Assembly: GCA_019636345.1 (NCBI GenBank)
Contig: JAHBXQ010000004.1
Location: 124,001 to 188,000 of the forward strand
DNA: 64,000 nt
Source of the DNA: Pirellulales bacterium
GTDB taxonomy: Bacteria; Planctomycetota; Planctomycetia; Pirellulales; Lacipirellulaceae
Reading direction: 5' to 3'
Positions 49,322 to 60,263 of this stretch are shown one piece after another (the stretch's first letter is position 1; each line of letters opens with the position of its first letter). A program made the position numbers and the translations under genes. Below the pieces are notes generated by a model, which saw nothing but the letters and a program-made list of their open reading frames with translations, was not told the DNA's origin and searched no databases.

Positions 49322-50485
49322 TCAGGCCGCTTGCGGCTTGGGAGAGGAGTTCCGCTTCGCACGCCGCCACAGTTCTGCGAGGGCTTCAGGGAGCGAACGG
49401 GCCTCGCACCGGCGATACGGGCTGTCGGCCGGAAGATCGCGCATCAGCCGACGATGAGCCTCGGGCAGGGCATGGTACGGCATCGACGGAAACACGTGGT
49501 GCAAGGCGTGGAATCGCAGCCCGATCGGCGCCCACAAGCCCCCCGTGATCGGGTGATAGGGGTAGTTCACCGAATCGAGCAATTGGTCGACGAAGTTCAT
49601 TTGCGAGCCGTCGTTCGTCCAGCGATGGGCGCCCAGGGTCCGCAGGGCGTTGATCCCCACGATGAAGACGCCGGTCAGATACGCCTGCACGACGAACCAG
49701 GGGGAGAGCCGCTCGTCGAACAGAATCCCCCCTGCGTAAACCATCCGCACGACGATGAACCAGATCACCGCCATGCACCCCAGTTCCTGCAGACGGATAA
49801 TCCGCAAGGTGCGCTTCGTGGGAAGCGGCCGCAGGTACTTGGGGTCCATGACCATCGACGAGGCGTGCTGATGCACCCAGTCGCGAATTCGCGGACTGAT
49901 CCAAGTGAGCGGCGTCAGCAACCCCCACCGTACGATCGCCAAAATGGGAATCACCAGCACCTGCGACAGGTAATACAGCAATTGCCCGACGGGCAGATTG
50001 GCCAGCGGGATGTATTCGCCGTCGTGCTCCGTGCCGTACATCTTCCGACGATGGTGATCGATGTGCGTGTAGTACACAAACGTCGGGATCAAAAACGGAA
50101 TCCCCACCAGCAGGTTCCACACGAAGCGGAACGCCGTGAACTGGTTCGCCGGGATGTGGACCAACTCGTGAATGAACAAACTGCAGCGGTAGATGAGCAG
50201 CGCCGACACGACGAACAGCGCGATCGTCGCCGGCCAGTGCCAGCCGGTCGAGGCGGCGAGGGCCTCAGCCTTCCAGAACCGATTGTCGACCAACCGCTCG
50301 GGATGCAACACCAGCGCGAAGGCGGTCATGCCGACGGCGTAGCTTGCCAACAGGTCGGTCCAGTAGATCCACGGATTGGGGCGAAAGAAGTCGCCGACGA
50401 TCCGCCTTGCCTCGGCCAGCGAGAACCGGGGGGACGATTCGTCGAGATGGTCGGAATCGAAGTCGAGGGCGGGAGCTGCAGACAC
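49322..50485 (-). CDS. Membrane fatty acid desaturase
   Basis: The 387-residue protein has the three His boxes of membrane di-iron desaturases: HELVH in LFIHELVHIPANQFTAF, HIDHHRR in VYYTHIDHHRRKMYG, and HALHHVFPSMPYHALPEAHR. Hydrophobic helices lie between them (ATIALFVVSALLIYRCSLF; LLVGIPFLIPTFVYY; AVIWFIVVRMVYAGGILF). It introduces double bonds into acyl lipids. The start is a GTG at 50485. It is divergent from a ketosynthase-like gene 313 bp away, so the two could share regulation. Confidence 0.88.
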   Translation of the reverse strand: MSAAPALDFDSDHLDESSPRFSLAEARRIVGDFFRPNPWIYWTDLLASYAVGMTAFALVLHPERLVDNRFWKAEALAASTGWHWPATIALFVVSALLIYRCSLFIHELVHIPANQFTAFRFVWNLLVGIPFLIPTFVYYTHIDHHRRKMYGTEHDGEYIPLANLPVGQLLYYLSQVLVIPILAIVRWGLLTPLTWISPRIRDWVHQHASSMVMDPKYLRPLPTKRTLRIIRLQELGCMAVIWFIVVRMVYAGGILFDERLSPWFVVQAYLTGVFIVGINALRTLGAHRWTNDGSQMNFVDQLLDSVNYPYHPITGGLWAPIGLRFHALHHVFPSMPYHALPEAHRRLMRDLPADSPYRRCEARSLPEALAELWRRAKRNSSPKPQAA

Positions 50486-50798
50486 GGCCGTTCGCTCAGC
50501 GAGAATTCAAACCCAGGCGACGGGCGGCAACCGCCGCCGCCTGGGGGGAGAAGCGGGAAGTTCGGCGGCTTGTGACGATCCCCTAGAGTTTATCTTCGGC
50601 GGAGACGGCCGACCAGCCAGTTGAGTTCCTGGGGCTTCGCTGCGGCAGGGCGACTGGGGTGCGTCCTGCTCCGCGCTTGTTGCCCATTTCCAGGCCGATT
50701 AGACTGACGGACGACTTGGAGCCGCTCCTGCCCGCGGCGTCCGCCGACCCTGCCCGTCCCCGCACCTCGCCCGCACGCCTCCAAGATTGCCGTTCGTC
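50486..50798. other. Divergent intergenic region between desaturase and ketosynthase-like genes
   Basis: This 313-bp region has a TTG at 50787 in frame with the ketosynthase gene, which could extend it by four residues. No clear promoter pair was recognised. Confidence 0.45.
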
Positions 50799-52055
50799 AT
50801 GCGCGAGGTCGTCATCACCGGCATGGGCATTGTTTCGTCGTTGGGAATCGGGCTGGAAGCCGTCCTCAAGGCGCTGGAAACCGGCCGCAGCGGCGTGCGA
50901 ACCGTTCCCGAGTTGGCCGCCGCCAACCACCCGATTCCCATCGCGGGGGACGTCGTCGATTTCGACGCCAAGGCCTACGTCAAGCCGCGCAAGGCCCTCA
51001 AGGTCATGTCGCGGGAGACTCAGCTCGCCTTCGCGGCTGCGGAATTGGCTTGGGACGCGGCTCGGCTCGAGGGCTGCGGCGTCGATCCCGAGCGGCTCGG
51101 CGTGACCGTCGGCTCGAACATGTTCTGCCCCGAAGTCGTCGAACTGGACGCCGCGTTCCATGCCTGCAAGAGCGGCGACGGCGCGTTCAATCTCGACCGC
51201 TGGGGCGATCGCGGGCTGGCTGAGATGTTTCCGCTGTGGCTGCTGAAATACCTGCCCAATATGGCCCCCTGCCATGTGGGGATCGCCCACGACGCCCGCG
51301 GTCCCAGCAACTCCGTCGTCGCCGGCGACACCTCGGGGTTGCTGGCGGTGATCGAAGCGGCCGACGTCGTTGCTCGCGACCACGCCGACGTCATGCTCAC
51401 CGGAGGCGCCAGTTCGATGCTGGGCATGATGGACGTCATGTGGCATGCCGGCGCCCGACTGTCTCGCAGCGTCGCCGAACCGGAGCGAGCCAGCCGGCCG
51501 TTCGACGCCAAGCGGGACGGAATCGTCGGCGGCGAAGGAGCGGCCATCCTCGTCCTGGAAGCCCGCGAGCATGCCGTCGCCCGCGGCGCGTCAATCCTGG
51601 GGGCCGTCCGCGGCTACGGCCGCCGGCACGAAGATGCCGCGGCGTCGCATCGGCCGACGGGACGATCAATCCGCGGCGCGATCGCCGCTGCGCTGGCTAC
51701 GGCCGACGCTACCGCCGCCGACGTGGGATGCGTCTCGGCGTTTGGCGCCAGCACCGAGAACGACGATCGGATCGAGGCCCAAGCGATCGCCGCCACGCTG
51801 GGGGACGTCCCCGTGACGGCTCTGAAGAGTCGCCTGGGCCACGCCGGGGCGGGATGCGGCGCGATTGAATTGGTCGCCGCGTTGGCCTCGATCCGCTGCG
51901 GCACGGTTCCGGCGACGCTTAACTACGAAACCCCTGACCCCGCGTGCCCGGCGAACGTCGCGGCGCAGGCTCGCCCGCCCCGCAGCCCGCTGATCATGGC
52001 TCTCGGCCATCGCATCACCGGCCAAGCCGTCGCGCTGACGGTCGAAGCACAGTGA
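50799..52055 (+). CDS. Beta-ketoacyl synthase (FabF-type) homologue lacking the catalytic Cys
   Basis: The 418-residue protein is FabF-like along its length: MREVVITGMGIVSSLGIGLE, the thiolase core, SRPFDAKRDGIVGGEGAAIL and LKSRLGHAGAGCGAIELVAA. At the active-site elbow GPSNSVVAGDTSGLLA an Asp (177) stands where Cys163 of FabF lies, and VSAFGASTENDDRIEAQ has Phe315 in place of the His of NAHGTST. Lys343 and the second His348 are kept. Loss of both catalytic residues resembles chain-length-factor (KS-beta) or decarboxylase-type relatives. It is unlikely to condense acyl chains itself. ATG 50799 matches family starts. Divergent from a desaturase. Confidence 0.88.
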   Translation: MREVVITGMGIVSSLGIGLEAVLKALETGRSGVRTVPELAAANHPIPIAGDVVDFDAKAYVKPRKALKVMSRETQLAFAAAELAWDAARLEGCGVDPERLGVTVGSNMFCPEVVELDAAFHACKSGDGAFNLDRWGDRGLAEMFPLWLLKYLPNMAPCHVGIAHDARGPSNSVVAGDTSGLLAVIEAADVVARDHADVMLTGGASSMLGMMDVMWHAGARLSRSVAEPERASRPFDAKRDGIVGGEGAAILVLEAREHAVARGASILGAVRGYGRRHEDAAASHRPTGRSIRGAIAAALATADATAADVGCVSAFGASTENDDRIEAQAIAATLGDVPVTALKSRLGHAGAGCGAIELVAALASIRCGTVPATLNYETPDPACPANVAAQARPPRSPLIMALGHRITGQAVALTVEAQ

Positions 52056-58544: not shown

Positions 58545-60263
58545 TCAGTTGCAGCCGCAAGCGGCGGGGGCCGCTTCGCCGCAACCGCAGCTGCTCGCCG
58601 GAGCGGCGCAACCGCAGTCGCTGCTCGCCGCACAGCCGCAGCCGCCGGTCGAGACAGTTTCCTGGACTTCCTGGGCGACCATCTTGCAGACCTTCACCTC
58701 GACCTGCTTTTCGACCTGGACCGGCACGCACACGGTGTAGGTCTCGGTCTTTTCTTCCGGCACGCACTCATAGGTGGTGACGTCGTAGGTGCGAGTCTTC
58801 TCCTCGGGCACCATCACGCAGACCTGGACTTCCTTCGTGGCCTGCTCAGTGACGTAGCTCGTGACCTGGTACTCTTGAGTCCGGGTCTCGGTACGGCACT
58901 TCTGCACGCACACGGTGCGGGTCTTCTGCTCGGGAACCATCTTGCACACCTTGACGGTGGTCGAGACGGTCTCGGGCACGCACTTGGTCACGCAGACGGT
59001 GCGAGTCTTCTGGACCGGGACCATCGTGCAGACCTTGACCTCGCGCTGGCGGGTCTCGGTCCGGCACTTGTTGACCGTCACGGTGCAGGTCTTCTGGACC
59101 GGGACCATCGTGCAGACCTTGACCTCGCGCTGGCGAGTCTCGGTCCGGCACTTGTTGACCGTGACCATGCAGGTCTTGGTCTCTTGACGGCACTTGGTCA
59201 CGCAGTAGGTGTACGGCACCTCTTCGGTGACGCACTGATAGGTCGTGCAGGGGACTTCCTTGGTTTCGCAGCCGGGGACCCACACCCGCTTGCAGCAGGT
59301 CGTGGGGCAGCCGCACGAGTCGGTCCCGGCGACCTGTTGGGTTTCCCAATGACCGGTGTTGACCGTCACGGTCTTCATCGTCGTCACGGGGACCTTCTTC
59401 GTTACGGTCCGCGAGGCGGTCACCTGCTCGGTGTAGGGGACGTTGACCGTGTAGGACTTCTCGACCTGCTCGGTGTACGGCACGCTGACGGTGTAGTCGA
59501 CCGTCTTGGTGCTGTAGCTCGGCTCCATGACCGTGTAGGACTTCTCGACCTGCTCGGTGTACGGCACGCTGACGGTGTAATCGACCGTCTTGGTGCTGTA
59601 GCTCGGTTCCATGACCGTGTAGGCCTGCTCGACCTGCTCGACGACCTGCTTCATCACCGTGCTGGTGACGACCTTGTCCTCATAGCTGGGGACCATGACC
59701 GTGTAGGCCTGCTCGACCTGCTCGGTGTAGGGGACTTGCACCGTGTACTCGCGAGTCTTCGTCTCGACGACCGGCTTGCACACGTTGTAGGTCACCGTCT
59801 TGGTCTGCTGCGAGGGGACCATGACCGTGTAGGTCTCGGTCTTGGTCTCGGTCTTCGGAACCCGGTTGTAGACGGTGTAGGTCCGAGTCTTCTCTTGCTT
59901 CTGGTACTCCGTGGACGTCACGGTCCGCATCTCGGTGACGTAGGTCGGCACCATGACGGTCTTGGTGACCACGGTCGTGCCGCAACCGCAATCGGCCGCC
60001 GCCGCCGAACCGCAGGCCGCCGCCGCTGCGCCGCAGGCGCCGCAACCGCTGGCCGCCGCACACGCGCACGACTCGCACGCGCTGGCCGCTTCACAACCGC
60101 TGTCGCAGCTCGATTCGCAGCCGCAACTCGACTCGCAAGCCGGAGCACAACACGACTCCGTCTTGCACTTCTTACGGAACAAGCCGGCGTCGGCCTGCTC
60201 CGTAACGCCCGCCGTCAGCACGCCGAGTGCTGCCGTCAGGCACAGGAAACGTTGATACATCAC
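58545..60263 (-). CDS. Cys-rich YTV-repeat cell-wall protein
   Basis: The 572-residue protein has a signal peptide (RFLCLTAALGVLTAGVTEQA), a Cys/Ala-rich N-terminal region (about 30-90), and then dozens of short repeats around Y-T-V motifs (YTVMVPSYEDKVVTSTV, YTVSVPYTEQVEKSYTV) and Cys-containing units (CTVTVNKCRTETRQREVKVC). It closes with another Cys-rich tail. The YTV domain is planctomycete-specific and such proteins were found in the wall of Rhodopirellula; disulfide cross-linking is the supposed role. Two tandem duplications are visible in DNA (period 84 bp near 59460-59610 and 81 bp near 59030-59170). ATG 60263 follows GGAGGG. Confidence 0.88.
   Translation of the reverse strand: MMYQRFLCLTAALGVLTAGVTEQADAGLFRKKCKTESCCAPACESSCGCESSCDSGCEAASACESCACAAASGCGACGAAAAACGSAAAADCGCGTTVVTKTVMVPTYVTEMRTVTSTEYQKQEKTRTYTVYNRVPKTETKTETYTVMVPSQQTKTVTYNVCKPVVETKTREYTVQVPYTEQVEQAYTVMVPSYEDKVVTSTVMKQVVEQVEQAYTVMEPSYSTKTVDYTVSVPYTEQVEKSYTVMEPSYSTKTVDYTVSVPYTEQVEKSYTVNVPYTEQVTASRTVTKKVPVTTMKTVTVNTGHWETQQVAGTDSCGCPTTCCKRVWVPGCETKEVPCTTYQCVTEEVPYTYCVTKCRQETKTCMVTVNKCRTETRQREVKVCTMVPVQKTCTVTVNKCRTETRQREVKVCTMVPVQKTRTVCVTKCVPETVSTTVKVCKMVPEQKTRTVCVQKCRTETRTQEYQVTSYVTEQATKEVQVCVMVPEEKTRTYDVTTYECVPEEKTETYTVCVPVQVEKQVEVKVCKMVAQEVQETVSTGGCGCAASSDCGCAAPASSCGCGEAAPAACGCN

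Follow-up and report, generated by a model that had tools for sequence, protein, structure and literature searches.

A ketosynthase homologue with Asp at the nucleophile position in a Pirellulales bacterium is probably an unlinked, chain-length-factor-like partner of a complete ketosynthase

RESULTS

A cysteine-less ketosynthase fold divergent from a membrane desaturase

The window analyzed here is a 64,000-nucleotide stretch of a Pirellulales genome (5.18 Mb, 95.9% complete). It carries a gene for a ketosynthase (KS) homologue, P0001, with the following features. Sites were numbered by alignment to Escherichia coli K-12 FabF (C163, H303, K335, and H340).

49322..50485, minus strand: membrane fatty acid desaturase, divergent neighbor of P0001 (PF00487, 7.9e-21; synteny)
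50486..50798, unstranded: 313-base intergenic stretch from the desaturase start to the KS-beta start (divergent layout kept in 32/53 loci)
50799..52055, plus strand: KS-fold gene P0001, 418 aa, without the catalytic Cys (KS-beta, chain-length-factor-like; translation, Pfam, AlphaFold2, and family alignment)
50991..51002, plus strand: codons 65 to 68, with Lys65 and Lys68 at the FabF K65 and R68 positions; the FabF K69 position is Val (alignment)
51132..51233, plus strand: residues 112 to 145, holding an insert of about ten residues (family alignment)
51327..51329, plus strand: codon 177, GAC, Asp at the FabF Cys163 position (codon reading and alignment)
51741..51743, plus strand: codon 315, TTT, Phe at the FabF His303 position (codon reading and alignment)
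51825..51842, plus strand: codon 343, AAG, Lys (FabF Lys335) to codon 348, CAC, His (FabF His340) (codon reading and alignment)
52011..52022, plus strand: residues 405 to 408, R-I-T-G, replacing the FabF GFGG oxyanion/gating loop 399 to 402 (family alignment)

The frame of P0001 is open throughout, with no internal stop, and the 418-residue product matched both ketoacyl-synthase domains (PF00109, 6.2e-34; PF02801, 8.9e-20), in agreement with the fold proposed in the preliminary description. The AlphaFold2 model had a mean pLDDT of 93.7 and a pTM of 0.93. Its best structural matches were FabF enzymes (Z 59.6 over 397 to 398 residues, 1.7 Å), with ~28 to 34% identity to the solved structures; such fold searches return FabF-type folds and cannot tell a KS from a chain-length factor (CLF). 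PDB entry 9s5h, which holds two different KS chains, was considered as a lead and dropped because FabF structures outranked it in each of the three queries. The score of P0001 against the fabF equivalog model was 259.6 bits, below the curated cut-off of 493.75.

Direct reading of the codons bore out all four active-site assignments made earlier. Asp177 stands at C163 and Phe315 at H303, and Lys343 (51825-51827) and His348 (51840-51842) are retained at K335 and H340. P0001 thus shares the fold of FabF (KAS II) but has Asp, Phe, and His in place of the Cys-His-His triad and lacks the GFGG loop. In FabF, part of the oxyanion hole is formed by this gating loop (PMC7138838; for all articles cited, we refer to the portions available to us). 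Conceivably, Asp177 may pair with Lys343 and so hold the dead site together.

At E ≤ 0.001 the genome contained six KS-like places, and P0001 was the only one inside the window. A genome search gave six PP-binding (ACP-type) places and none within the 64-kb window. Since the window thus holds no other KS-like place and no PP-binding place, the earlier remark that P0001 is not beside a complete KS or an acyl carrier protein (ACP) was correct.

An acidic residue at the Cys position across a planctomycete family

We assembled 126 Cys-less planctomycete KS homologues, hereafter beta; the searches were seeded mainly with P0001, and the rows are not independent. The Cys position was occupied by Asp in 59, Glu in 62, Ser in 2, Asn in 2, and Gln in 1 (L206 read NSKH across the four sites in one reading and NNKH in another), so that 121/126 were acidic, and the six closest relatives of P0001 (64 to 69% identical) all had Asp. 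At the first-His position, His was found in 100/126 and Phe in 8/126, including P0001. The Lys was kept in 109/126, and the second-His position was Asn in 75/126 and His in 31/126. The GxGG loop was present in 2/126 beta rows, in 47/48 Cys-bearing rows with the insert, and in 44/47 FabF-like rows.

The preliminary description had asked whether the Asp is conserved in planctomycete orthologues and held that Cys and His at these sites in orthologues would indicate a local mutation or a sequencing error. For the Cys this was not found, and an acidic residue occupied the position in nearly all rows. The first His, in turn, is kept by most orthologues, so Phe315 alone could be local. Residues at P0001 positions 315 and 348 varied among close relatives, and a same-genus relative (L007) had Gln at the Phe315 position. 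Asp177 is therefore not a local mutation, an acidic residue being the family state; Phe315 appears to be a local departure, and His348 is a minority state.

The insert region spanned 30 to 38 residues in beta and in the complete planctomycete KS described below (alpha), versus 22 in most FabF-like rows; the insert of about ten residues is therefore common to beta and alpha and absent from typical FabF. Trees were quick searches with midpoint roots and SH-aLRT support only. The Cys-less rows fell on one side of a branch in each of three differently sampled trees, named here by their number of Cys-less rows: 88 (support 97), 109 (support 96), and 42 (support 99). The 109-row tree was built without five of the 205 rows, which were long or odd (L159, L160, L164_2, L165, and L166, the last two Cys-less). 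In the 42-row tree, the 42 beta rows (of 126) were combined with every one of the 48 Cys rows that carry the insert, E. coli FabF, 16 of the 47 FabF-like rows, and 8 of 14 Streptomyces rows; the Gln-type CLF L211 was left out. In this tree, the beta and alpha parts contained the same lineages in similar groups. The row adjoining the Cys-less branch (L052) retained Cys, had Asp at the second His, and was located 5′ of a complete KS.

Relatives of P0001 adjoin a complete ketosynthase

We examined the genes adjacent to beta in other genomes, as the preliminary description had proposed; the order and family assignments of relatives were made by inference. In three Gemmataceae-type loci (L051, L059, and L064), beta was immediately 5′ of alpha, and genes for two FabA/FabZ-like dehydratases, a FabG-like reductase, and an ACP lay upstream. 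Two further Gemmataceae-type loci (L053 and L084) had the beta-alpha tandem with fewer accompanying genes. Separately, we noted at L051:10648-13444 and L064:10573-13374 an alpha/beta-hydrolase and a GH3-family protein 3′ of the beta-alpha genes; for L051 the GH3 domain was clear, and OlsH, a lyso-ornithine lipid synthetase, gave a weak match under its cut-off.

Besides these five tandems, we examined 20 regions from other families. In 16 of them a Cys-less beta and alpha were neighbors on one strand, with Glu (14), Gln (1), or Asn (1) at the Cys position of beta. Eight of the 20 regions (7 genomes) had been selected after their beta hits were known. The remaining 12 had been picked for an alpha hit without a beta hit at an earlier cut-off, and in 11 of these beta was nonetheless next to alpha. 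The other four of the 20 were L232 (family f33), in which both copies bear Cys; L231, in which beta is present, alpha is cut by the contig end, and the sites were unread; and L218 and L230, with alpha alone, L230 and L231 being contig ends of one genome. Dehydratase-ACP-dehydratase genes like those of L051 occurred in 8/20 regions (L214, L215, L217, L225, L227, L228, L229, and L231) and were absent from several pairs in families f67, f73, f89, and f92, indicating that this operon is not universal.

In a phylum sample, beta was detected in at least 35 of 244 genomes, four of which (f33) matched through a Cys-bearing first member; this figure is a minimum, since some beta genes that were afterwards located next to alpha escape the cut-off. 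Alpha was detected in 55/244 genomes at 1e-117, a cut-off chosen after inspecting the list. Among the genomes with a beta-family hit, 34/35 also carried alpha, which shared descent alone could explain. In four genomes of family f23 (G060, G090, G140, and G205), beta was far from alpha or on a different contig; this unlinking is a separate case from that of the window's order.

ACP-docking residues are split between beta and alpha

In FabF, Lys65, Arg68, and Lys69 contact ACP (PMC7138838). According to the Fig. 3 legend of that article, an ACP makes most of its contacts with the KS monomer to which it is not linked; the wording is "most," and the legend does not name the monomer residue by residue. 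Position 65 was basic in 126/126 beta, 1/43 alpha, and 46/47 FabF-like rows, and position 68 in 124/126, 11/43, and 45/47, respectively. The mean net charge over FabF positions 61 to 71 was +3.89 in beta, −0.84 in alpha, and +1.43 in FabF-like rows. The K69 position was basic in just 1/126 beta, and docking region 2 (R127, K128, and R206) was mostly non-basic in both beta and alpha, with R206 retained in P0001; the kept patch thus consists of two residues. Conversely, alpha retained the Cys, His, and Lys of the active site, as well as the loop and second His in nearly all rows.

In the f33 pairs (L192, L200, L204, and L205), both members had Cys-His-Lys-His. The ACP patch was present in all four first members, and the corresponding segments of the second members showed no such motif. 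Because these pairs have two Cys residues and the patch in the first member, the docking split may, on these sequences, have preceded the loss of chemistry, and the f33 pairs are possibly an intermediate stage.

Were a patch-less alpha dependent on beta, any genome that carries alpha should carry beta as well, and on this basis we tested 14 genomes in which beta or alpha was seemingly missing or unlinked. A Cys-less beta was found in 14/14 (Glu 13, Ser 1), each basic at both 65 and 68. Eleven of the 14 had alpha; 0/11 were basic at both positions, 2/11 at position 65, and 3/11 at position 68. Three genomes, G022 (86% complete), G045 (430 contigs), and G107 (700 contigs), carried beta without a strong alpha match (no alpha hit in G045), which argues against strict dependence.

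Unlinked copies in the window's order

In the window's order, beta is found outside alpha clusters and is of two types, and the window's genome holds one of each. Type 1, the P0001 kind, was divergent from a membrane desaturase in 32/53 loci, the window not counted, and in 25/30 loci of the window's own family. All 32 of these neighbors were divergent, with starts 205 to 716 bases apart, and the placement pointed out in the preliminary description is therefore real as synteny. Both promoters likely lie in 50486..50798, and the kept divergent desaturase suggests that the P0001 copy is expressed together with lipid desaturation.

Type 2 has Glu. The own copy, P0003 (L156:12812-14164, minus strand), is in a cluster with acpP and fabF (nusA, infB, rbfA, fabD, and fabG in L156 were named by eye). 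It has Glu, His, Lys, and Asn at the four sites and is basic at FabF positions 65 and 68. The genome's alpha, P0002 (G000:C4:516131-517414), belongs to a dehydratase-ACP-dehydratase-alpha cluster without beta and has Ala/Asp/Gln at positions 65/68/69; the genome's FabF (L156:16257-17495) has Lys/Lys/Arg. Alpha was found in 56/59 related genomes at E ≤ 1e-110. Alpha and beta are thus unlinked in the window's genome, and P0001 does not have the position beside a KS and an ACP that marks a KS-CLF.

DISCUSSION

The proposed KS-beta role and the readings that compete with it

P0001 probably acts as the helper in an enzyme made of two parts, since its chemistry is lost and its carrier grip is kept, and its counterparts in many related bacteria adjoin an enzyme with the opposite losses. 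In our reading, which we regard as probable, P0001 is an orphaned, non-catalytic KS-beta (CLF-like) subunit that belongs to a planctomycete type II ketosynthase pair and works for alpha in trans. We infer a beta-alpha heterodimer in which one of the two sites is live. The ACP that supplies the active site of alpha would dock on the basic patch of beta, since the subunit not taking the acyl chain provides most ACP contacts in a KS dimer; the patch of alpha itself, which would serve the dead site of beta, would then decay. Beta would line the far end of the acyl pocket of alpha and limit chain length, and thus probably sets that of the product. With Ala/Asp/Gln at its docking positions and no adjacent beta, P0002 would be served in trans by one or both of P0001 and its Glu paralogue P0003, and the expression of P0001 is perhaps tied to desaturation.

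Three options had been offered for P0001 in the preliminary description: a CLF-like partner, a decarboxylase, and a non-catalytic binder. The first is favored because relatives adjoin a complete KS and keep two ACP-docking residues that this neighbor has lost; the last stays as a rival in the form of a homodimeric pseudo-ketosynthase that would bind acyl-ACP without chemistry, for example presenting it to, or sensing it for, the desaturase or the control of fatty acid synthesis. Retention of Lys65 and Lys68 with loss of catalytic residues, the kept divergent desaturase, and the absence of a nearby KS or ACP agree with such a binder, but it leaves the lost docking residues of alpha unaccounted for and sits poorly with an origin in tandem pairs with a complete KS; we consider it rather unlikely.

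A bolder version of the in-trans reading is that Planctomycetes made the inactive half of a tandem KS into a movable regulatory subunit. The Asp and Glu copies would compete for the patch-less alpha and couple chain length to desaturation, so that membrane fluidity would be controlled by swapping the docking half of the condensing enzyme, with the Asp copy by the desaturase and the Glu copy in the fatty acid cluster. We hold this to be a speculative and unlikely extension.

A partnership in which P0001 joins the ordinary FabF encoded in the main fatty acid operon, instead of alpha, and alters its chain length is doubtful. The location of P0003 with acpP and fabF would fit it, but the insert is common with alpha and not with FabF, and the FabF of this genome, basic at all three docking positions, needs no docking partner.

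A KSQ decarboxylase has Gln for Cys and keeps both catalytic His residues, and a Cys-to-Gln change is a known route to decarboxylase activity; P0001 instead has Asp, and Phe for the first His. Most beta rows do keep the first His and the Lys, as a malonyl-ACP decarboxylase making acetyl-ACP starter units would. This option is nevertheless disfavored, and we judge it highly improbable, because the GxGG oxyanion loop is lost in 124/126, the second His is mostly Asn, P0001 has Phe315, and FabH, the usual starter enzyme, scored over the cut-off in 53/59 relatives, the window's genome included. With FabH so widespread (E ≤ 1e-20 in 58/59), no starter decarboxylase is needed, and a decarboxylase replacing FabH was set aside.

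An error of a single assembly could explain Phe315 alone, which is uncommon and at a variable site, but a decaying pseudogene or sequencing error as the account of the whole gene is scarcely credible given the intact frame, the confident fold, the Asp in all six nearest relatives, and the acidic residue kept through the family.

Comparison with known ketosynthase pairs

Like beta, the CLF of an aromatic type II polyketide synthase has a full-length KS fold without the Cys, and in many relatives beta likewise adjoins a complete KS. P0001 shares the fold and the missing nucleophile and, by analogy, would act as the CLF does in type II polyketide synthases. The classical aromatic CLF has Gln at the Cys position, a residue seen in a single beta. 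We do not file P0001 as a classical CLF because it has Asp instead of Gln and does not adjoin its KS. An annotated ketosynthase chain-length factor, L211, differs from beta in having the Gln, 22 residues without the insert, and the kept GxGG loop.

The Streptomyces plasmid KS pairs L208, L209, L210, and L212 show a partial likeness to beta. One member has Ala for Cys with an insert of similar length and is basic at 65 and 68 in 4/4; in its Cys-bearing partner, position 65 is Val or Ile, although 68 remains Arg or Lys. Uniting beta, the first members that bear Cys, and the Ala-type Streptomyces rows in a single clade gave p-AU 0.419, so that a common origin is neither shown nor rejected. An independent origin from actinobacterial CLFs, suggested by the 109-row tree, was withdrawn on this value from the 42-row tree.

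Among highly reducing systems, the KS-CLFs Iga11-Iga12 (ishigamide) and ApeO-ApeC (aryl polyene) consist of a KS and a non-catalytic partner, accompanied by a reductase and dehydratases, as for beta; the ACP is reported to contact the CLF in Iga11-Iga12, and ApeC is about half-size compared with the full-length beta (PMC8358021). AmcF-AmcG (cispentacin) resembles alpha-beta in combining a complete KS with a partner without functional motifs, but AmcG, unlike beta, lacks some CLF secondary structure and is a proposed cyclization factor (PMC10698177). Planctomycetes have been counted among the phyla with KS-CLFs, and some beta-alpha pairs may be in those data (PMC10132072).

Asp and Glu at the Cys site were already reported for Rhodopirellula in 2009. 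Two FabF paralogues of Rhodopirellula baltica have Asp (NP_865682) or Glu (NP_866153) for Cys, which Rattray et al. took as a sign of different function (PMC2649909). At the remaining sites NP_866153 reads His, Lys, and Asn, which is the pattern that most often accompanies Glu in beta. The available portion of that ladderane study treats them as odd FabF paralogues and describes no tandem partner, docking split, or neighbor (PMC2649909); we found no ladderane link. Likewise, the accessible parts of the literature searched on planctomycete ketosynthases, FabF, and type II polyketides gave no account of the beta-alpha pairing, the docking split, or the unlinking.

If P0001 is indeed a KS-beta acting in trans, these genes would outline a route to a KS pair with one active site, namely a docking split between two copies that both bear Cys, then loss of chemistry in one copy, then relocation of the dead copy. 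Asking which copy retains the ACP patch would serve as a sequence test for partners of unlinked KS homologues, and a concrete partner would be assigned to an odd gene that persists across the window's class.

Two further observations concern the surroundings of P0001 and of alpha. The window also encodes, at 58545-60263 on the minus strand, a repeat-rich protein with many YTV-type repeats by eye. Its cluster comprised 10 loci, five of them near alpha operons elsewhere (L065, L067, L069, L072, and L077), and the own-genome member is L158:5262-6665. The records of L069 and L072 are titled as Candidatus Kuenenia group, and both grouped in the trees with the planctomycetacean alpha of L065 and L067; these assemblies may be mislabeled.
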